Below, piece by piece: positions 32,159 through 63,789 of a stretch of DNA of 64,000 nucleotides. Source of the DNA: Fimbriimonadaceae bacterium. Lineage in GTDB: Bacteria; Armatimonadota; Fimbriimonadia; Fimbriimonadales; Fimbriimonadaceae. The DNA is taken from contig JAHBTD010000002.1 in assembly GCA_019638775.1 (NCBI GenBank), positions 868,001 to 932,000 of the forward strand, in the 5' to 3' direction. Below the pieces are notes generated by a model, which worked only from the letters and a program-made list of their open reading frames with translations, searched no databases and was not told where the DNA came from. The number at the start of each line of letters is the position of its first letter. Position 1 is the first letter of the stretch. A program made the translations under genes and the position numbers.

Positions 32159-32734
32159 TCAAGGCTTCGGCTTTCCAAATTCTCCAGATGGATAACCCAC
32201 AAGGATGCCCGCGTTGCGTAGGTTCGCAACCGCACCAGTCGCCCAGTGATCGGAAGGAACGTCAGGAAATGGACGAGCAAACCCTGGATACTCTGCGGCC
32301 CAATGCGCTGATAGCTCGTCCACTCTCTTCAGCAAGTCTTCAGGATCGCATGGCCTGTCTTCATAGGAGTTCGAAATCTCCTGAAGCTCCTTCGACACGT
32401 ATCGAATCAATCGCTTCAGTTGCGATAGCTCCCAACCTGTACCTGGAGCAACGGTATCTCGATAAGATTTCTGTTCTTGAGAAGTTGCCGACCAAACCTG
32501 ACTGTATTTCATCACCAGAGCATTCGCCGTCACCGCAAGATCCCATTTCGACGGGAACTCACCCCTGACATGACCAGCGGAGCCATCTGGATAGCCAGCC
32601 AACATGCCCTTGTTCTGGACCACACGGATAAACGGCCTCGCCCACTCAGTCCCTTTGTTCGTCCACTGTTGGGATGATGAGCCGCTGGCAAAAGTCAGCG
32701 CCAAGCCAGCAACAACTACGCGAGTGACCTTCAT
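32159..32734 (-). CDS. SLH-domain secreted protein
   Basis: 191-residue exported protein with signal peptide MKVTRVVVAGLALTFASGSSS. It has two S-layer homology modules, WARPFIRVVQNKGMLAGYPDG (about 31-51) and FPDVPSDHWATGAVANLRNAG (about 154-175, followed by ILVGYPSG). SLH modules bind pyruvylated cell-wall polymer and anchor proteins to the surface. Between them is a helical spacer rich in Glu and Arg. Two modules instead of three is common in SLH proteins of this phylum. Its stop lies 38 bases from the gcvPB end side, on the same strand. Confidence 0.85.
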   Translation of the reverse strand: MKVTRVVVAGLALTFASGSSSQQWTNKGTEWARPFIRVVQNKGMLAGYPDGSAGHVRGEFPSKWDLAVTANALVMKYSQVWSATSQEQKSYRDTVAPGTGWELSQLKRLIRYVSKELQEISNSYEDRPCDPEDLLKRVDELSAHWAAEYPGFARPFPDVPSDHWATGAVANLRNAGILVGYPSGEFGKPKP

Positions 32735-32773: not shown

Positions 32774-34285
32774 CTACGCAATAACCGCAGTCTTCGCAGG
32801 ACGCCAACGCACGTCTAAATCCTTCACCGCTTTCGCCTCATCCAACCGCCCCACGATCTGCGTCGACGGCGCGTTGTGCAGCAGCTCAGGATCGGTCTCC
32901 GCCTCTTTGCAGATCGCAATCAGCGCATCGCAGAACGCGTCCAAGGTCTCCTTGCACTCCGTTTCCGTCGGCTCGATCATAAAGCACTCGGGAACGATCA
33001 ACGGGAAGTAGTTGGTGGCCGGGTGGAAGCCATAGTCGATCAACCGCTTGGAGATATCCAGCGCCCGCACGCCGAACTGCTTCTTATAGCGTTCCGCCGT
33101 CAAGATGCACTCGTGCGTGCAAGGTCGATCATGCGCGGGAGGAAGAACCTCTTTCAGCCGAGCACGCAGATAGTTGGCGTTCAGGACCGAATACCGGCTG
33201 ATATCCGGCAAATACTCCTTGCCCATCGCAAGCAGATATGTATAAGCCCGCACTGCCATCAATGACTGCCCCCAGAACGAGCTAACGCGCCCAATGCTGA
33301 GCGGACGGTTCTCGTCCACATACGCCTCCGTTGCGCTCAACCCAAGCTTTGCCGACTGCTTCTTGCTCACGATCACTGGCCCAGGCAAAAACGGCTCCAG
33401 ATGTTTCATCAAGCCGATCGCGCCGCACCCCGGCCCGCCGCCTCCGTGAGGGGTCGTAAACGTCTTGTGCAGATTCAAATGCATGCAGTCGAACCCATGA
33501 TCGCCGGGGCGGGTGGTGCCCACCATCGCGTTCATGTTCGCGCCGTCGCAGAAAACCTGTCCGCCGACCGCGTGCACCATCTCACAAATCTTGGAGATGT
33601 TGGTCTCAAACAACCCGAGCGTGGATGGGTTTGTGACCATAAAGGCCGCGACCGTGTCATCCAACAACGCCTCAAAGGCCTTTAGATCAGTATTACCGCT
33701 GGCATCCGTCGGAACGGTCTTCACATCGTAACCACATCGCGCCGCCGAAGCCGGATTGGTGCCGTGAGCCGAGTCGGGAATCAACACGATTCGGCGCTTC
33801 TCCCCTTCCCCACGCGACTCGTGATACGCCTTGATGAGCATCAAACAGGTCTGCTCACCGTGCGCCCCCGCTACCGGCTGCATCGTGATCGCATCAAAGC
33901 CGGTGATCTCAATCAGAAAGTCTTGAACGCCCGCAATGACCTCAAGAAAGCCCTTCACCGTATCCAGCGGTTGCAGCGGGTGAATCTGGGTGAAGCCCGC
34001 CAAGCCTGCCGTGCGCTCATTGATGCGCGGGTTGTATTTCATGGTGCATGAACCGAGCGGATAGAAGCCCGTGTCGATGCCGTAGTTGATGTGGCTCAGG
34101 TTTGTGAAGTGGCGCACCAGGTCCATCTCACCTATCTCCGGCAGATGCAACTCCGTGCGCATCTCTCCAACAGTCGCCTTGAGATCGACTTTAGGCGTGT
34201 CGCAACGGGGAACGTTGCATCCAACGCGGCCCGCGCGGGATTTTTCAAAGATGAGTTGCGGCTGAGGAACGGTCTTTGTGGGCAT
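32774..34285 (-). CDS. gcvPB: Glycine dehydrogenase (decarboxylating) subunit 2
   Basis: PLP-containing subunit of the P-protein of the glycine cleavage system: decarboxylates glycine and passes the aminomethyl group to lipoyl-GcvH. 503 residues, typical of the two-subunit form. Landmarks: YPLGSCTMKYNPRINE, PVAGAHGEQTCLMLIKAYH, DSAHGTNPASAA and the PLP lysine in LNLHKTFTTPHGGGGPG. Its partner subunit gcvPA is not adjacent: a 2 kb cassette (34393-36339) separates them. TAAAAT lies 14 bases before the ATG, giving a short leader. Confidence 0.97.
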   Translation of the reverse strand: MPTKTVPQPQLIFEKSRAGRVGCNVPRCDTPKVDLKATVGEMRTELHLPEIGEMDLVRHFTNLSHINYGIDTGFYPLGSCTMKYNPRINERTAGLAGFTQIHPLQPLDTVKGFLEVIAGVQDFLIEITGFDAITMQPVAGAHGEQTCLMLIKAYHESRGEGEKRRIVLIPDSAHGTNPASAARCGYDVKTVPTDASGNTDLKAFEALLDDTVAAFMVTNPSTLGLFETNISKICEMVHAVGGQVFCDGANMNAMVGTTRPGDHGFDCMHLNLHKTFTTPHGGGGPGCGAIGLMKHLEPFLPGPVIVSKKQSAKLGLSATEAYVDENRPLSIGRVSSFWGQSLMAVRAYTYLLAMGKEYLPDISRYSVLNANYLRARLKEVLPPAHDRPCTHECILTAERYKKQFGVRALDISKRLIDYGFHPATNYFPLIVPECFMIEPTETECKETLDAFCDALIAICKEAETDPELLHNAPSTQIVGRLDEAKAVKDLDVRWRPAKTAVIA

Positions 34286-34392: not shown

Positions 34393-34863
34393 TTACTCAT
34401 GCGCCACAATCGGTTCTGGCAAAGGTTTTTGCGGGCAGGTTGTACAAGGCGGGATCAGCTCAGGAATCACATCATCCGGCCCTGTAGGATTGCATTTCTC
34501 GTCGGAACAGTTGAGATTTAGAGGTGTAGCATCGTACGGGGTTCCCCTGATACAAAATTGAAGTGGTCCCTCACCGCATCGAAAGGAAATGTACTTCACC
34601 CTAAACCTCGTGCGTTGATTGCATTGTGCTCCAGCAGGTGAACATTGAGTTGAATGACTATTGCAGCTGTACATAAAGCCATCCAATTCTTCGCTAACAT
34701 CACGATAGGTATATAGCCCACCTCCGCAGGGATCTCCCTCTCGTATTGGCATCGGACATTCTGGGTATGTAGGTGTGCACGATCCATCACTAGCCCAGGC
34801 TATTGTCGCTATTCCCAACACGGTGATTATCAGGCAAATAATGCCAAATCTATTTGTTTTCAT
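34393..34863 (-). CDS. Cysteine-rich secreted protein, unknown family
   Basis: 156 residues. Signal peptide MKTNRFGIICLIITVLGIATIAWA; the mature part holds twelve cysteines, an even number fit for six disulfides (for example SCTPTYPECP, DPCGGGLYTY, CSPAGAQCNQR, NCSDEKCN, CTTCPQKPLPEP). It has no match I recognise. It is the last of three genes in an operon with a pseudopilin and a membrane thioredoxin protein, 13 bases after the pseudopilin, so it may be the oxidised and exported substrate of that apparatus. The block is AT-richer than its flanks (one row counted at 38 percent GC against 55 and 62 in gcvPB and gcvPA). Confidence 0.75.
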   Translation of the reverse strand: MKTNRFGIICLIITVLGIATIAWASDGSCTPTYPECPMPIREGDPCGGGLYTYRDVSEELDGFMYSCNSHSTQCSPAGAQCNQRTRFRVKYISFRCGEGPLQFCIRGTPYDATPLNLNCSDEKCNPTGPDDVIPELIPPCTTCPQKPLPEPIVAHE

Positions 34864-34876
34864 TTCGCCTCCACAC

Positions 34877-35512
34877 TTATTGGAGCGGTCTACCGCTCTT
34901 CCGCGCTCTCAGCCTTTCATCCATCTCTTCTTTCACGGCACCCATCGAATAATATGCTGCTTCATCTTCCCAGTCGCTAAGCATAGGGCACCATTTAACA
35001 TGTCCATCTAAGTATCCACCTAAGACTTCGAATGCTTCAGTTTTTGAAATAGAGTTAGCAAATCCTTGTTTAGGACTCGAAAAATATCTCTTATTGATAA
35101 AACCTAAGCTTCTCGGGAAAAATTCAGCTTTTACAATTGGATCCGAGACTGGATCAAATTTTGTTGTTAGTGGACGCCTTTTTTCCGCGATGCGAACACC
35201 CCAATTGTAAGTCAGTGAATATTCTGGCAACCCATGTGAACCAGGATAGTCCGCAAGCTCTGGGCGACCCTTAACATACTTATAAGAGCCCTCTAAACTA
35301 TGCAAATAATTCGGATAATTGCCGTCATAATCAGACATATACAGATTGATTGCGGAAACATTTTGCTTTAAATCCACTCTAATCGCCGTCTCATGCGATT
35401 TACGCATCACTACAGGCCTCAGAAGCAGCGTAAGTGTCACACAAAGAATAGCTATTATTGCTATTACGATTAGTATTTCAGGCAAGGTAGCGCCTCTTGT
35501 CTTCTTCCTCAT
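34877..35512 (-). CDS. Divergent pseudopilin
   Basis: 211 residues. The prepilin-type N-terminus RGATLPEILIVIAIIAIL has the cleavage Gly, the Glu5-equivalent and the hydrophobic helix. The C-terminal part contains LGGYLDGHVKWCPM, a DGHVK element as in H-X9-DG pseudopilins. Its start overlaps the stop of the upstream gene by four bases (ATGA), so translation is coupled. It probably forms an exported membrane-anchored fibre or adaptor. Its sequence is clearly different from the pseudopilin at 22180. Confidence 0.85.
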   Translation of the reverse strand: MRKKTRGATLPEILIVIAIIAILCVTLTLLLRPVVMRKSHETAIRVDLKQNVSAINLYMSDYDGNYPNYLHSLEGSYKYVKGRPELADYPGSHGLPEYSLTYNWGVRIAEKRRPLTTKFDPVSDPIVKAEFFPRSLGFINKRYFSSPKQGFANSISKTEAFEVLGGYLDGHVKWCPMLSDWEDEAAYYSMGAVKEEMDERLRARKSGRPLQ

Positions 35513-36339
35513 TTCCCCTCTCCCTCACTCGAAGCATCAAAGCTTTCGCTCACCTTTCCGTTTTCAAAAATCATAATATAAGGAATGCCAGCCGTGCGGA
35601 CGTTAAACATCGAAAAGAATTCAGGATCGGCATGTCGGATGACGGTCTTGTTTGCCCATACCGGATCATCTGCTCCGTCTAAAACAAAAACTTGCAACGG
35701 ATATTGTTGATACTTCTGCCTTAGCTGGCCTATTATCTTCTCCATCCTGCCCGACCAACAGGTCGGACATTTTGCTGAAAAGATCGCAACTGCATTCTGG
35801 CCTATTATTCCAGTTTCAGGCAAAGCGGCTCCAACACGTAGCCCCTCGGCCTCTATGAAATTATTAGAAGCAATCGTCCTGGCGCTTGCTCGCACGAAGG
35901 GAGACATACTGAGCGCAACTACGCAAAACGTGGCTGTAAGAATAGCTACACTGCCAATTCTTGCAAGTTTCCGATTTTCAAGAATAACCTCAAGCAACAG
36001 TACTCCCCACAAGAACCAAAAGGTAAGACACATAAGGCAAGGCTGCACACCAAGCAAGTAGCCCGTCGAGAGGAGCAAGACACCAGTGACTGATCCAAGA
36101 ACAACAATACAGTCGCTCCACAGACCTCGCAGAAAATTCAAGCTTAATGCAACCGTAAAGCCAATTAGCGGCAATAGGACTGCCTTAAAATATTGAAAGG
36201 GACCAGGCTGCGTGCATGCTGTACAAAAGCTAAGGAGAATGATTGCAGGAGGAAGTGGAAGAATCCACTTGACGATTGTCCCTATCTTCAAGACTCTTCT
36301 TTGAACTGCGATTTCCCCAATAACACATTCCTCAGCCAT
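35509..36339 (-). CDS. DsbB/VKOR-like membrane protein fused to thioredoxin domain
   Basis: 277 residues from ATG 36339 (a TTG at 36360 adds seven residues). Four to five membrane helices cover about 20-150 and contain two CxxC pairs: Cys39/Cys42 (FCTACTQ) and Cys101/Cys104 (QPCLMCLTFW, in a VKOR/DsbB-like position). Residues about 165-277 form a thioredoxin-like domain with AIFSAKCPTCWSG (Cys191, Cys194) and a cis-Pro segment GIPYIMIFENG. The natural reading is a quinone-linked thiol oxidase that drives disulfide formation in one polypeptide. First gene of the Cys-rich cassette. TATAGA (complement of 36366-36371) is a plausible -10. Confidence 0.82.
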   Translation of the reverse strand: MAEECVIGEIAVQRRVLKIGTIVKWILPLPPAIILLSFCTACTQPGPFQYFKAVLLPLIGFTVALSLNFLRGLWSDCIVVLGSVTGVLLLSTGYLLGVQPCLMCLTFWFLWGVLLLEVILENRKLARIGSVAILTATFCVVALSMSPFVRASARTIASNNFIEAEGLRVGAALPETGIIGQNAVAIFSAKCPTCWSGRMEKIIGQLRQKYQQYPLQVFVLDGADDPVWANKTVIRHADPEFFSMFNVRTAGIPYIMIFENGKVSESFDASSEGEGK

Positions 36340-36525
36340 GTGCAAACTCCGAACAGTCAAGACGCTCTATAAATTATCACATAGGACGCGAAATGTAAAG
36401 AGATGTTCTCAAGAATTTTTTGGTTAACGCTAAATTAGATTGCAACAATTGGTAATTGTGCCAGTAGTTTAGCCTGAAATTAGTTTCTCTATGTCTACTA
36501 CTGCCAACAATTTGACCAAGAATCA

Positions 36526-36551
36526 TTGAGACTCAAAGAGTTGTGTCTCAA
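36526..36551. repeat. Inverted repeat upstream of the cassette
   Basis: TTGAGAC (36526-36532) and GTCTCAA (36545-36551) in the AT-rich 36340-36611 spacer. Nothing else is recognised in that spacer. Confidence 0.5.
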
Positions 36552-36611
36552 AGAATAGACAAGAGATTGGCAGGCATTGCAGATATTCTTGAGTGCTATC
36601 AAAGCAGCCAG

Positions 36612-37952
36612 TTAAGCAAGTTCAAATGATAGCTTCGTCGCAAAATCATCGATCTGCGCTTTCGTCCGGGTCTCCGTCACCGCAACAAGCAAGCAGTTCT
36701 CCATCCCTTGATAGAACTTACCAAGAGGAAGACCGGCAAGGACGCCCTTCTCCATCATTGCGCGTTGGACGGTTTCAGCGCTTTTGGGCAGCTCCAATAC
36801 AAACTCCCCAAAGACCTTGCCCGAATACTTCACCCTCGCCCCCGCCTCCGAAAGCTTCGACATCGCGTACTGTGTATTGCGGACCGTCGATTCGGCAACC
36901 GTTTGCATACCGTTCTTGCCAAGCGCCGACATGTAAATCGTTGCCGCCAAGGCCATAAGCGCTTGGTTTGTACAGATATTGGAAGTCGCCTTTTCTCGGC
37001 GAATATCCTGCTCTCGCGTGCGCAGAGTCATCACATAGCCTGGATTGCCGTCGTGGTCCAACGTCTTACCAACGATTCGGCCCGGAATTCGGCGGACAAG
37101 CTCGGTCTTACACGCAAACAGTCCAACCACCGGTCCACCAAAGCCCATCGCCACACCCATCGGCTGGCCCTCGCCAACAACGATGTCAGCGCCGTATTCG
37201 CCCGGTGGCTTAAGCAGCGCGCAGGCGATAGGATCGGCAACAACCACGAACATCGCTCCAGCTTGGGTAGCCGCTTCCCTTGCTTGGGCAAGGTCTTCGA
37301 TCGTGCCAAAGAAGTTGGGATATTGGACGATCACACAAGCTGTGTCTTGGTCGAGCTTCGAATAATCCGTCGTCGCGCCATCTTCATGGTTGATCACAAC
37401 CACGTCCAGCCCAATCGACCAGCAATAAGTCTCCAGAACCTGCCGATAGTGGGGATGCACGGCATCGCTCACCGCGATCTTTTGCCTGCCATTCACTCCG
37501 TGGCAAAGAATCGCCGCTTCAGCCGTTCCCGTCGCCCCGTCATAGAGCGACGCATTGGCAATCTCCATCCCGTAAAGGTCAGCGACCATCGTTTGAAATT
37601 CGTAAATGGTTTGCAGGTAACCCTGCGATAGCTCGGGCTGATACGGCGTGTACGCGGTCAAGAACTCGCCACGCGAGATCAGAGCGCCGACCGTCGCCGG
37701 AATATATCGGTCATAAATCCCTGCGCCAAGGAAGCACACAAGATCGGTTAGGAGATTTTTATTCTTGCGTGAAAGCTCAAAGAGGTGACCCAGGAGTCTG
37801 TGTTCATCAAGCGAAGCCGGAACATCCAGCTGACCCTTGAGCTTCAGGTCATCGGGGACCTCTCGGAACAGCTCCTCAATGCTGCCCGCACCGATGGTGG
37901 CGAGCATCTCTTTAACGTCTTCTTCGGTGTGGGGGATGTATGGGCGGGACAT
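36612..37952 (-). CDS. gcvPA: Glycine dehydrogenase (decarboxylating) subunit 1
   Basis: N-terminal-half subunit of glycine decarboxylase, working with GcvPB and GcvH. 446 residues. Recognised by SRPYIPHTEEDVKEMLATIG at the start, PYQPELSQGYLQTIYEFQTM, NASLYDGATGTAEA and VVGEGQPMGVAMGFGGPVVG. The -10-like TAAAAT (complement of 37957-37962) lies four bases before the ATG and is part of an AAAATCC-type repeat. gcvPB is 2.3 kb downstream beyond the low-GC cassette. Confidence 0.97.
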   Translation of the reverse strand: MSRPYIPHTEEDVKEMLATIGAGSIEELFREVPDDLKLKGQLDVPASLDEHRLLGHLFELSRKNKNLLTDLVCFLGAGIYDRYIPATVGALISRGEFLTAYTPYQPELSQGYLQTIYEFQTMVADLYGMEIANASLYDGATGTAEAAILCHGVNGRQKIAVSDAVHPHYRQVLETYCWSIGLDVVVINHEDGATTDYSKLDQDTACVIVQYPNFFGTIEDLAQAREAATQAGAMFVVVADPIACALLKPPGEYGADIVVGEGQPMGVAMGFGGPVVGLFACKTELVRRIPGRIVGKTLDHDGNPGYVMTLRTREQDIRREKATSNICTNQALMALAATIYMSALGKNGMQTVAESTVRNTQYAMSKLSEAGARVKYSGKVFGEFVLELPKSAETVQRAMMEKGVLAGLPLGKFYQGMENCLLVAVTETRTKAQIDDFATKLSFELA

Positions 37953-61168: not shown

Positions 61169-61777
61169 TTAGTAAAGCTCGAATGCGAGGTCGTCCTTTC
61201 GTCCGTTGCAAGGGTCGATCAGCGGCTGATAAATCATGCCATTGTAGTCCACCTGGACTGCTGGGCAAAGATTTACACGCTGGTGTGCCGACCAAGCGAA
61301 GTCAGGGCGATCCGGATGTGCGCTCTCTGCATCATCCTCAGAAATCTGAAGCCAGAGCTTCGCGCCGCCAGGATACAGATAGTTCCACGGATTCAGCGGC
61401 TGCTTGAACCGGAAAACCTTCTGACCCGTGCAGTCTCCATCCACAAACTCCCAATACGGCTTGAGACAGTCGCTCCAAACCAACGCGTTCATGTCGGGCT
61501 GGCAGTTGCCATTGTCCTTATAGACCGCATAGTACATCGGTCGGCCAAGTTGGGCATCCGAGGAAACCGTCCCCCAATAGACGATGGTGCTGACAAGCAC
61601 ATCGTTGATGATGTAGAAATCATCAAGGGCGACCAGCTTGTAAGGCTTGGGATTGTCACATGAACGAACGACCGATTCCCAAGAAGCCAGCGGCCTTGTC
61701 CAAGGCTGAGACCAAACCTGCGAGAGCGCTCCCGAAGCCGTCATAACGGCAATCATCAATACTACGAACTTTTTCAT
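61169..61777 (-). CDS. Secreted protein, paralogue 1 of 3
   Basis: 202 residues. Signal peptide MKKFVVLMIAVMTASGALS, then QVWSQPWTRPLASWESVVRSC, YKLVALDDFYI, TIVYWGTV, MYYAVYKDNGNCQP, WEFVDGDC, FRFKQPL, and LQISEDDAESAHP. Six Cys are conserved in all three copies. No family recognised. GGGGAGGT lies before the ATG. Each paralogue has its own terminator, so they are separate monocistrons. A 23-base palindrome sits in its leader. Confidence 0.85.
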   Translation of the reverse strand: MKKFVVLMIAVMTASGALSQVWSQPWTRPLASWESVVRSCDNPKPYKLVALDDFYIINDVLVSTIVYWGTVSSDAQLGRPMYYAVYKDNGNCQPDMNALVWSDCLKPYWEFVDGDCTGQKVFRFKQPLNPWNYLYPGGAKLWLQISEDDAESAHPDRPDFAWSAHQRVNLCPAVQVDYNGMIYQPLIDPCNGRKDDLAFELY

Positions 61778-61792
61778 CTCATTACCTCCCCT

Positions 61793-61815
61793 AAGACTTG
61801 TATATCACAAGTCTT
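61793..61815. promoter_or_regulatory. 23-base palindrome upstream of paralogue 1
   Basis: AAGACTTGT-ATATC-ACAAGTCTT, nine-base arms and five-base centre, in the leader or promoter. It may be an operator or an RNA hairpin. Confidence 0.5.
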
Positions 61816-61993
61816 TCTTGAGTAACAGATTCTATTATATACATTCTCTTCTACAAGAGATACAATTGTTATATTTAATTAATCCTATTTTTTATCGATC
61901 TGTATAATGTTAAATAATTCTACGGTATATGATTCTCTCAATAACATTATACTCTTATATCAATTGACTATTCCGTAGTAGGACAATAAAAAA

Positions 61994-62014
61994 GCCCCGA
62001 GCTCTTCTCGGGGC
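61994..62014 (-). terminator. Terminator of paralogue 2
   Basis: GCCCCGAG/CTCGGGGC stem; minus strand continues into CTTTTTTATTG. Confidence 0.9.
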
Positions 62015-62030
62015 AAAGTTTCAGATTTTC

Positions 62031-62636
62031 CTAGTACAGTTCAAATGCCAAGTCGTCCTTCGCCCCGTTGCACGGGTCTTGCAGCGGTTGAATGAAATTA
62101 CCATTCCAATCCCACTGCAAAGCAGGACATAGGTTAACCGATTGATGCGAAGACCACGCAAACTCCGGAGCTCCCGGATTGGCGCTGTTGCTGTCATCCT
62201 CCGCAATCTCAATCCAGTAGTGACCCGAGGAAAGGCGAAGAATGTTTAGCGGACTAAGCGCTTGCTTAAACCGAAAAACAAGCTGGCCCTGACAGTCGCA
62301 GTCCACAAACTCCCAATCGGGCTTGAGGCAGTCTTTCCAGACAAGAGAGTCGATAGCCGGCTGACAGTTGCCGTTATCCTTGTAGACGGCATAGTACATC
62401 GGGCGGCCGAGTTGAGCGAGATCGCGTACCGTTCCCCAATAGACGATCGTACTGATTCGAACGTCGTCGGTGCGGAAATCATCAAACGCGGCCAATTTGA
62501 ACGGCTTTGGATTATCGCAAGAACGCACGACCGACATCCACGCGGGTAACGGACGAGTCCAAGGCTGTGACCAAACCTGAGACATTGCGGTGGAAGCAGC
62601 CATCGCAATCCCCAATAGTGCAATGATTCTCTTCAT
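62031..62636 (-). CDS. Secreted protein, paralogue 2 of 3
   Basis: 201 residues, signal peptide MKRIIALLGIAMAASTAMS, then QVWSQPWTRPLPAWMSVVRSC and the same blocks as paralogue 1 (FKLAAFDDF, STIVYWGTVRDLAQLGRP, FVDCDCQGQLVFRFKQAL, LQWDWNGNFIQPLQDPCN). GGAGATG lies before the ATG. A short -10 TATAGT is present in the upstream palindrome ACTATATAGT. Function unknown. Confidence 0.85.
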   Translation of the reverse strand: MKRIIALLGIAMAASTAMSQVWSQPWTRPLPAWMSVVRSCDNPKPFKLAAFDDFRTDDVRISTIVYWGTVRDLAQLGRPMYYAVYKDNGNCQPAIDSLVWKDCLKPDWEFVDCDCQGQLVFRFKQALSPLNILRLSSGHYWIEIAEDDSNSANPGAPEFAWSSHQSVNLCPALQWDWNGNFIQPLQDPCNGAKDDLAFELY

Positions 62637-62837
62637 ATCGTTACATCTCCATTTGCGAGCAGTGCCCGCTTCTTCCGACTATATAGTACTTCACATTTCT
62701 TTCATGTTTCACGATAACAGAAAAGAAATTTTAGAATCATTTTAGAGTCTTAAATCATAAGAACCATTACATTTTTACGTTAAATTAACCAAGCCTAAAC
62801 TATTGCTTCCTAAATAGGCGGGTGAATCAAAAAGAAA

Positions 62838-62859
62838 GGGCCCGCCAAAAGGCAGGCCC
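62838..62859 (-). terminator. Terminator of paralogue 3
   Basis: GGGCCCGCC/GGCAGGCCC imperfect hairpin; minus strand continues CCCTTTCTTTTTGATTC. Confidence 0.85.
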
Positions 62860-62874
62860 TGACTCAGATTGACA

Positions 62875-63486
62875 TCAATAAAGCTCGAAAGCGAGATCGT
62901 CTTTCTGCCCGTTGCACGGATCAATCAAAGGCTGAATGATCGCCCCTGTCGAGTCAAACTGCACAGCTGGGCACAGGTTGACTGGCTGGTGTGACGACCA
63001 AGCAAACTCCGGCACATTCGGATTCGCGCTCTGCGAATCGTCTTCCGAGATTTGCAGCCAATACTTGCCGAATGTCAGGAACGGCAGGTTGCCAACCGTA
63101 AGCGCTTGTTTGAACCTAAACACGCGCATGTTTTGGCAGTCGCCATCAACAAACTCCCAATCGGGCCGCAGGCAATCACGCCATACCATCGAATTCAGAT
63201 CAGGCTGACAGTTGCCGTTATCCTTGTAGATCGCATAGAACATCGGTCGCCCAAGTTGAGCGAAGTTCGTGACGGTCCCCCAGTACACAATCGTGTTGAG
63301 AGTCACATAGTGATGATTCACCATAAAGTCGTCAAGCGCCATCAGACGATAGGGCTTGGGATTCGTGCAAGAACGTACCACCGACGTCCATGCTGGAAGC
63401 GGCCGCGTCCAAGGTTGCGACCATACCTGTGACATTGCGCTCGAAGCCACCACCGCAATGCCCAAAATACACAGTAATTTTTTCAT
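62875..63486 (-). CDS. Secreted protein, paralogue 3 of 3
   Basis: 203 residues from ATG 63486 (an upstream frame adds eight non-signal residues). Signal peptide MKKLLCILGIAVVASSAMS, then QVWSQPWTRPLPAWTSVVRSC and conserved blocks as above (YRLMALDDFMVNH, LNTIVYWGTVTN, GDCQNMRVFRFKQ, DPCNGQKDDLAF). The three copies are head to tail, about 850 bases apart, in AT-rich spacers. Probable recent duplicates; function unknown. Confidence 0.85.
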   Translation of the reverse strand: MKKLLCILGIAVVASSAMSQVWSQPWTRPLPAWTSVVRSCTNPKPYRLMALDDFMVNHHYVTLNTIVYWGTVTNFAQLGRPMFYAIYKDNGNCQPDLNSMVWRDCLRPDWEFVDGDCQNMRVFRFKQALTVGNLPFLTFGKYWLQISEDDSQSANPNVPEFAWSSHQPVNLCPAVQFDSTGAIIQPLIDPCNGQKDDLAFELY

Positions 63487-63789
63487 CTCCAATTTCCTTC
63501 CAATAGCCACAGATTGTTGTGTACATTGGAATATACAGATTACAACACTAATCTACATATTATCAGGATTCTTGGCATGAATATTTATTGAGATATTTGA
63601 ATAAGAATGATCAAATATTAAACTATAGACGTTGCGTGATTCGCAAGCAAGATAATAACATAAAGAGAATTCGTTGCCATCTTCATGCTTTATGATTACT
63701 GATTAAATCAAATAAGTACAACGAATAATCTCAAACGTACGTAAAGATTTCCAGAAGTAGGAGTTCTGCAATCACGACCGCATTCCGGC

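Follow-up and report, generated by a model that had tools for sequence, protein, structure and literature searches.

A 64,000-nucleotide stretch of DNA from a Fimbriimonadaceae bacterium (the window) contains a conserved and previously unnamed unit of three consecutive genes. On the minus strand, these encode a membrane thiol oxidase, a pseudopilin, and a secreted cysteine-rich protein. The best explanation of this cassette seems to be a self-contained module that folds the Cys-rich protein and then exports or displays it (we put the probability at roughly 55%). The parts of this proposal differ in strength. That the Cys-rich protein is oxidized by the cassette's enzyme appears well supported, by co-occurrence and by cysteine patterns. 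A pairing of the pilin's head with its partner is moderately supported, as the two seem to have been duplicated and varied together. Export or display by a pseudopilin is what we infer from the gene pairing and from precedent.

The features of the locus are listed in Table 1. The oxidase and pilin genes share 4 bases, and 13 bases separate the pilin gene from the Cys-rich gene. A GGAG ribosome site precedes the ATG of the oxidase, and there is a strong ribosome site before each of the other two genes. (An upstream TTG at 36360 was rejected as the oxidase's start codon; it has no ribosome site.) The terminator is a 16-pair hairpin with a T-rich tail, and no shuffled sequence folds as well. A simple scan had missed it. 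In the AT-rich region upstream, there is no consensus promoter above chance expectation. The co-transcribed layout described in an initial annotation of this DNA, with its two spacings and a single terminator, was accurate, and we confirmed both the coordinates and the hairpin. That annotation also raised the alternative that the Cys-rich reading frame is an in-frame part of a larger gene. This is ruled out: the gene carries a signal peptide, a ribosome site, and a stop codon of its own, and its homologues begin and end alike.

Table 1. Features of the three-gene cassette and its flanks, in window coordinates.
Feature	Position	Strand	Details
Membrane thiol oxidase gene	36339-35509	-	276 aa; ATG at 36339, stop at 35509
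Pseudopilin gene, divergent type IV pilin-like	35512-34877	-	211 aa
Secreted Cys-rich protein gene	34863-34393	-	156 aa
Intrinsic terminator, 3' end of cassette	~34374-34339	-	fold -33.9 kcal/mol, z = -3.9
AT-rich region upstream of cassette, presumed promoter location	36361-36611	-	37% GC
gcvPA (glycine dehydrogenase subunit 1), upstream flank	36612-37952	-	context only
gcvPB (glycine dehydrogenase subunit 2), downstream flank	32774-34285	-	context only

We examined the oxidase for functional residues. It has about five transmembrane helices, with the motifs CTAC (residues 39-42) and CLMC-xx-FW (101-108). The C-terminal part is a thioredoxin-like domain that carries CPTC (191-194) and P253, a proline that is invariant and is likely the cis-proline. 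When the oxidase is aligned with three homologues, 11 positions are invariant, and six of these are the cysteines of the three CxxC pairs (C39/C42, C101/C104, and C191/C194). The alignment of the four oxidases also shows F-W after the second pair and the proline 59 residues after the third. The topology is of the VKOR type: an outer cysteine pair, a CxxC at the start of the fourth transmembrane helix, and then the thioredoxin-like domain. Hydropathy and the order of the cysteines resemble those of the genome's own housekeeping VKOR-DsbA fusion (G000:C2:1050262, where G000 is the window's genome). Since the genome already has this fusion, the cassette's oxidase is probably a second, dedicated enzyme.

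The oxidase belongs to no family in Pfam or NCBIfam, Pfam's VKOR profile (PF07884) does not match any of the four oxidases, and there is no significant alignment with the genome's true VKOR. One homologue has a weak match of the DsbB type (E = 0.019). Its structure was predicted with low confidence (pLDDT 56), as helices followed by a thioredoxin-like half; the best PDB neighbors of this weak model are mostly thioredoxins, below significance (E ~0.1). A profile of the oxidase had only chance-level matches to the sequences of solved structures. Because the profile matches are not significant, we call the oxidase VKOR/DsbB-like by its cysteine motifs, its membrane topology, and its thioredoxin-like C-terminal half, rather than a proven member of either family. 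The original label, DsbB/VKOR-like with a thioredoxin domain, holds for those three properties but not for a match to the Pfam family or to the genome's own VKOR. Known VKOR-thioredoxin and VKOR-DsbA fusions likewise have about five transmembrane helices, the same order of cysteine pairs, and a C-terminal thioredoxin-type domain with a CxxC. Unlike these fusions, the cassette's oxidase has no profile match, and a CxxC takes the place of Cx5C as its first pair. Also, those fusions are general enzymes, whereas this oxidase appears to be tied to one client gene.

The Cys-rich protein has a Sec-type signal peptide (at about residues 1-25) and 13 cysteines, with one in the signal peptide and 12 in the mature chain. 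Ten cysteines align between the window's protein and the copies in another genome, G002, and nine are invariant once a copy from a third genome, G165, is added. So the mature chain does have the twelve cysteines that were first reported, but the conserved core is 9-10 and not 12. By sequence or by fold, the protein has no match in Pfam, NCBIfam, PADLOC, or PDB. A fold search with its predicted structure (pLDDT 66) found nothing significant (the best E was 1.1), and its profile had only chance-level matches to the sequences of solved structures.

Another cluster with a small cysteine-rich product is mau, which has a membrane redox protein, a thioredoxin domain, and a small protein that contains some 12 cysteines. 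Given the similar division of labor, the cassette could instead mature a cofactor or a redox protein, as MauD and MauE do, with the Cys-rich protein as an enzyme subunit. In both cases, dedicated redox proteins would serve one disulfide-rich secreted protein (the methylamine dehydrogenase light chain, in the case of MauD/MauE). But the Pfam family for that light chain is unmatched, there is no fold match, and neither Pfam nor the fold search found any sequence relation to the Mau proteins. Furthermore, the mature Cys-rich chain lacks the conserved tryptophans that would form TTQ, no gene for a partner enzyme is present, and the cassette has no sign of a cofactor and has an added pilin. We consider this explanation barely credible.

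The window encodes other secreted proteins as well. At 61169-63510, there are three tandem paralogues of 202-211 amino acids with a common QVWSQPWTRP start and a sub-threshold match to DUF7901; they lie near the end of the window, and the array may continue. At 32159-32734, there is a secreted protein with a single C-terminal S-layer homology domain. It ends soon after this domain and is possibly truncated.

The middle gene of the cassette had been described as a divergent pseudopilin, and its N-terminal prepilin motif agrees with this. The motif is G|ATLPE, and the protein scores above the cut-offs of both PF07963 (N_methyl; 22.2 bits vs. 21.2) and TIGR02532 (17.3 bits vs. 16.3). The C-terminal end is LDGHVKW. 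The protein scores far below the cut-off for GspG, the major pseudopilin (15.2 bits against the equivalog model TIGR01710, which has a cut-off of 88.85), and it has no score against the Verru_Chthon models (TIGR02596 and TIGR02599). Prepilin peptidase is present in the genome, with three matches to PF01478 above the cut-off. One of these is a 377-aa protein on contig C1. The other two (G000:C13:19865 and G000:C28:8820) are equal 186-aa frames on separate contigs, which could be due to duplication or contamination. The pilin of G165 has a degenerate prepilin motif, with no glycine at -1 and with glutamine at +5, which argues against a uniform mechanism.

We then asked where else the cassette occurs. 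We used single-protein searches of 61 genomes, profile searches of 291 genomes from the phylum, and searches of 85 genomes from the family. The single-protein search with the Cys-rich protein found one relative, in G002, and it lies inside the same cassette. At one G002 locus (C42), the oxidase is followed by a pilin (4-base overlap), a Cys-rich gene (4-base overlap), and a second pilin. At another (C20), where genes overlap as well, the oxidase is followed by three pilin/Cys-rich pairs in tandem and a fourth pilin at the contig's end. The oxidase profile led us to the same trio, with overlaps of 1 and 4 bases, in G165, which is from another genus. Thus, the gene order that the initial annotation suggested looking for is intact at three loci, which belong to two further genera of the family, and there is a broken remnant in a fourth genus (G141:C54, L064:5771-7679). 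In the remnant, the pilin has an open frame, but the oxidase is divided between two frames, and stops and frame changes interrupt the Cys-rich region. The cassette may have decayed here, or the breaks may reflect sequencing or assembly errors. The recurrence of the gene order in other genera, together with purifying selection on the Cys-rich copies (pS of 0.76-0.80 and pN of 0.22-0.29), implies that the cassette is not a chance arrangement.

The oxidase and the Cys-rich protein have the same distribution. Our first profile for the Cys-rich protein found it only in G000 and G002 among the 291 genomes of the phylum. With G165 added to the profile, it is found in 3 of the 85 genomes of the family, and strong matches to the oxidase are in exactly the same three. 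If the two genes were independent, the chance of this would be about 1e-5. (Weak matches to the oxidase in G146, G007, G031, G039, G057, G023, and G135 look like chance, and the cassette is absent at the weak-match loci of G031, G146, G007, G023, and G135.) Pilins of the same subfamily, which we recognized by their C-terminal head, occur more widely, without the partners, in G011, G157, and G145 and as a lone copy in G002 (C46). Therefore the oxidase and the Cys-rich protein are the inseparable part of the cassette, and its pilin is one of a more widespread subfamily, in which some pilins come with a client. A caveat is that the first profile missed the Cys-rich gene of G165, so other diverged members may be missed too. 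There was no match in GTDB genome contigs beyond G002's own record, none in IMG/VR with the Cys-rich and oxidase profiles, and none in the plasmids that were searched with the Cys-rich protein.

The four places where the pilin subfamily stands alone, with no need of the other two proteins, raise a different reading: the oxidase might fold the Cys-rich protein for the periplasm or for an ordinary type II system, with the pilin as a loosely associated neighbor. However, every intact Cys-rich gene that we found is directly downstream of a subfamily pilin, with an overlap or a short gap, and the two genes have been duplicated and varied as a pair (see below). We think that a loose association is rather unlikely. 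Cys-rich homologues that live apart from both the oxidase and the pilin would refute the original interpretation. We found none in the profile searches of the phylum and the family, except for a fragment at the end of a contig (G002:C34, L048). There, the Cys-rich fragment is followed by a pilin that breaks off at about codon 38, where unrelated sequence takes over. It looks like a truncated array unit, with the start of a pilin still beside the Cys-rich fragment.

If the oxidase is dedicated to this cassette, which protein is its client? Two cysteines, about 40-45 residues apart, are present in the head of most subfamily pilins, so the oxidase might form the pilin's disulfide, with the Cys-rich protein as an accessory. 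Pilins of another type do need disulfide-forming enzymes, as a report on VKOR and MdbA from Actinomyces oris describes (PMC5478893). But the window's pilin lacks the two cysteines, although the oxidase beside it retains all six catalytic cysteines. Conversely, the pilins of G011 and G157 retain the pair in genomes with no such oxidase. This double mismatch indicates that the client is likely to be the Cys-rich protein. Also, the housekeeping VKOR-DsbA would be available to a pilin. A role for the oxidase in folding the pilin is therefore very improbable in our judgement. The initial annotation's suggestion of an oxidase dedicated to the Cys-rich protein looks right, given the shared distribution and the cysteine patterns.

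The tandem array in G002 gives evidence about the pilin and its partner. At C20 (L029:1-5200), codons 1-90 of the pilins are 90-100% identical in DNA (80-100% at third positions), but from codon 91 to the end they are just 41-66% identical (22-53% at third positions). The identical block starts ahead of the pilin, within the final bases of the Cys-rich gene before it, and continues across the spacer. Between two constant blocks lie a single pilin head and the greater part of a single Cys-rich gene, so the head and its partner vary together. The two pilins at C42 show the same pattern, with 96% identity over 209 bases. Between C20 and C42, the 5' part of the pilin is only 59-72% identical, which implies that similarity is maintained within each array. 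Gene conversion or unequal exchange would be the simplest explanation of this homogenization. The pattern may represent paired diversification of the head and its partner, but it could also follow from relaxed constraint. This evidence is from a few copies in one genome, a metagenome assembly with one 407-base gap in the array. As the contig end and the gap lie in or next to the repeats, more units may exist.

A bolder extension is that constant pilin stems and a shared oxidase serve variable two-protein modules, in a modular and recombining system for secretion or display. In that case, the modules (a pilin head with its disulfide-rich partner) would have spread and duplicated, with reshuffling between the conserved blocks. 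This would resemble antigenic-variation or polymorphic-effector systems, but with two proteins as the variable unit. We regard the extension as doubtful, if possible.

The cassette also appears to be an insertion. In 10 of the 11 comparable relatives, the gap between gcvPA and gcvPB is 9-188 bp; in the window it is 2.3 kb and holds the trio. (Comparable relatives are those in which both genes were observed next to each other; in three others, gcvPA was not seen in the flank.) The eleventh relative, G007 (L116:462-2042), has an unrelated gene at the same junction, encoding 526 amino acids with a CxxCH motif of the cytochrome type and a stretch that resembles a sugar dehydrogenase. The window's trio has a GC content of 45.4%, with a third-position GC of 0.37-0.44 vs. 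0.54-0.78 for the other long frames in the window. The remaining trios are also lower in GC than their surroundings, and all are in different neighborhoods. We did not find terminal repeats of the insert or, for the G165 locus, a clean empty site within its own genus. The cassette fits a horizontally moving accessory unit, although low GC alone could have other causes.

Patchy distribution and foreign composition, along with tandem diversified copies of a small, secreted, disulfide-rich product, would also suit an antibacterial or anti-predator protein that is stabilized by disulfides and carried on a pseudopilus, with the tandem pairs as a repertoire of variants. However, the cassette contains no immunity gene, PADLOC's models (of anti-phage defense) are unmatched, and there is no fold match. 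Such a role in antagonism seems improbable to us.

The closest precedents for the preferred reading, folding followed by export or display, are CofB/CofJ and TcpB/TcpF. In these systems, a type IVb minor pilin recognizes the secreted protein of its own system but not the one from another (PMC9565799). One operon encodes both the pilin and its cargo, the match is specific to the pair, and extension of the filament exports the protein. The cassette resembles them in having a pilin and its putative partner, a secreted protein, in one operon. It differs in having a dedicated thiol oxidase, a Cys-rich partner from a different family, and tandem arrays of pairs; also, no pilus operon surrounds it. 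By this analogy, pilin-linked secretion with a private folding enzyme would be the most economical description. A related member of the Armatimonadota, Fimbriimonas ginsengisoli, has 79 PulG-type pseudopilin genes and a type II system (PMC4072686). The pseudopilin expansions in Armatimonadota and the Verru_Chthon cassette are similarly large families of N_methyl pilin-like proteins, with mostly obscure roles, but the cassette's subfamily is set apart by a distinct C-terminal head and by fixed partners. As the initial annotation stated, no named system with this composition could be found. We found no paper that joins pseudopilin, cysteine-rich protein, and vitamin K epoxide reductase, and no relevant paper that joins DsbB, pseudopilin, operon, and thioredoxin. 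The annotation's overall interpretation is supported in part: the cassette, the apparently dedicated oxidase, and the absence of a named counterpart have stood up.

We propose that the module would work as follows. First, the Cys-rich protein would pass through Sec to the oxidizing side of the envelope, where the VKOR/DsbB-like protein, with its fused thioredoxin domain, would form its disulfides (up to five conserved pairs). The electrons would probably go to the quinone pool, an acceptor that is suggested by the class of enzyme. Second, the folded protein would be recognized by the globular head of the neighboring pseudopilin, with each head matched to its own partner. Third, the pseudopilin would be processed by prepilin peptidase and enter the pseudopilus of a resident type II secretion system or type IV filament. 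The pseudopilus would then carry or push the Cys-rich protein outside, as for CofB/CofJ and TcpB/TcpF. Fourth, the pilin and the Cys-rich protein would be the unit that is duplicated and diversified, with one oxidase serving several pairs, as the DNA pattern in one relative suggests.

Armatimonadota genomes contain dozens of pseudopilins with no assigned role, and the cassette links one subfamily to a secreted client and a private disulfide-forming enzyme. This makes it a concrete and testable case of what such a pseudopilin may do. The cassette suggests the purpose-built folding and export or display of variable small proteins. If the pairing is true, then these bacteria would have a filament-linked route for export or display with its own catalyst of oxidative folding, and the arrays of constant and variable segments would show how that route has diversified.
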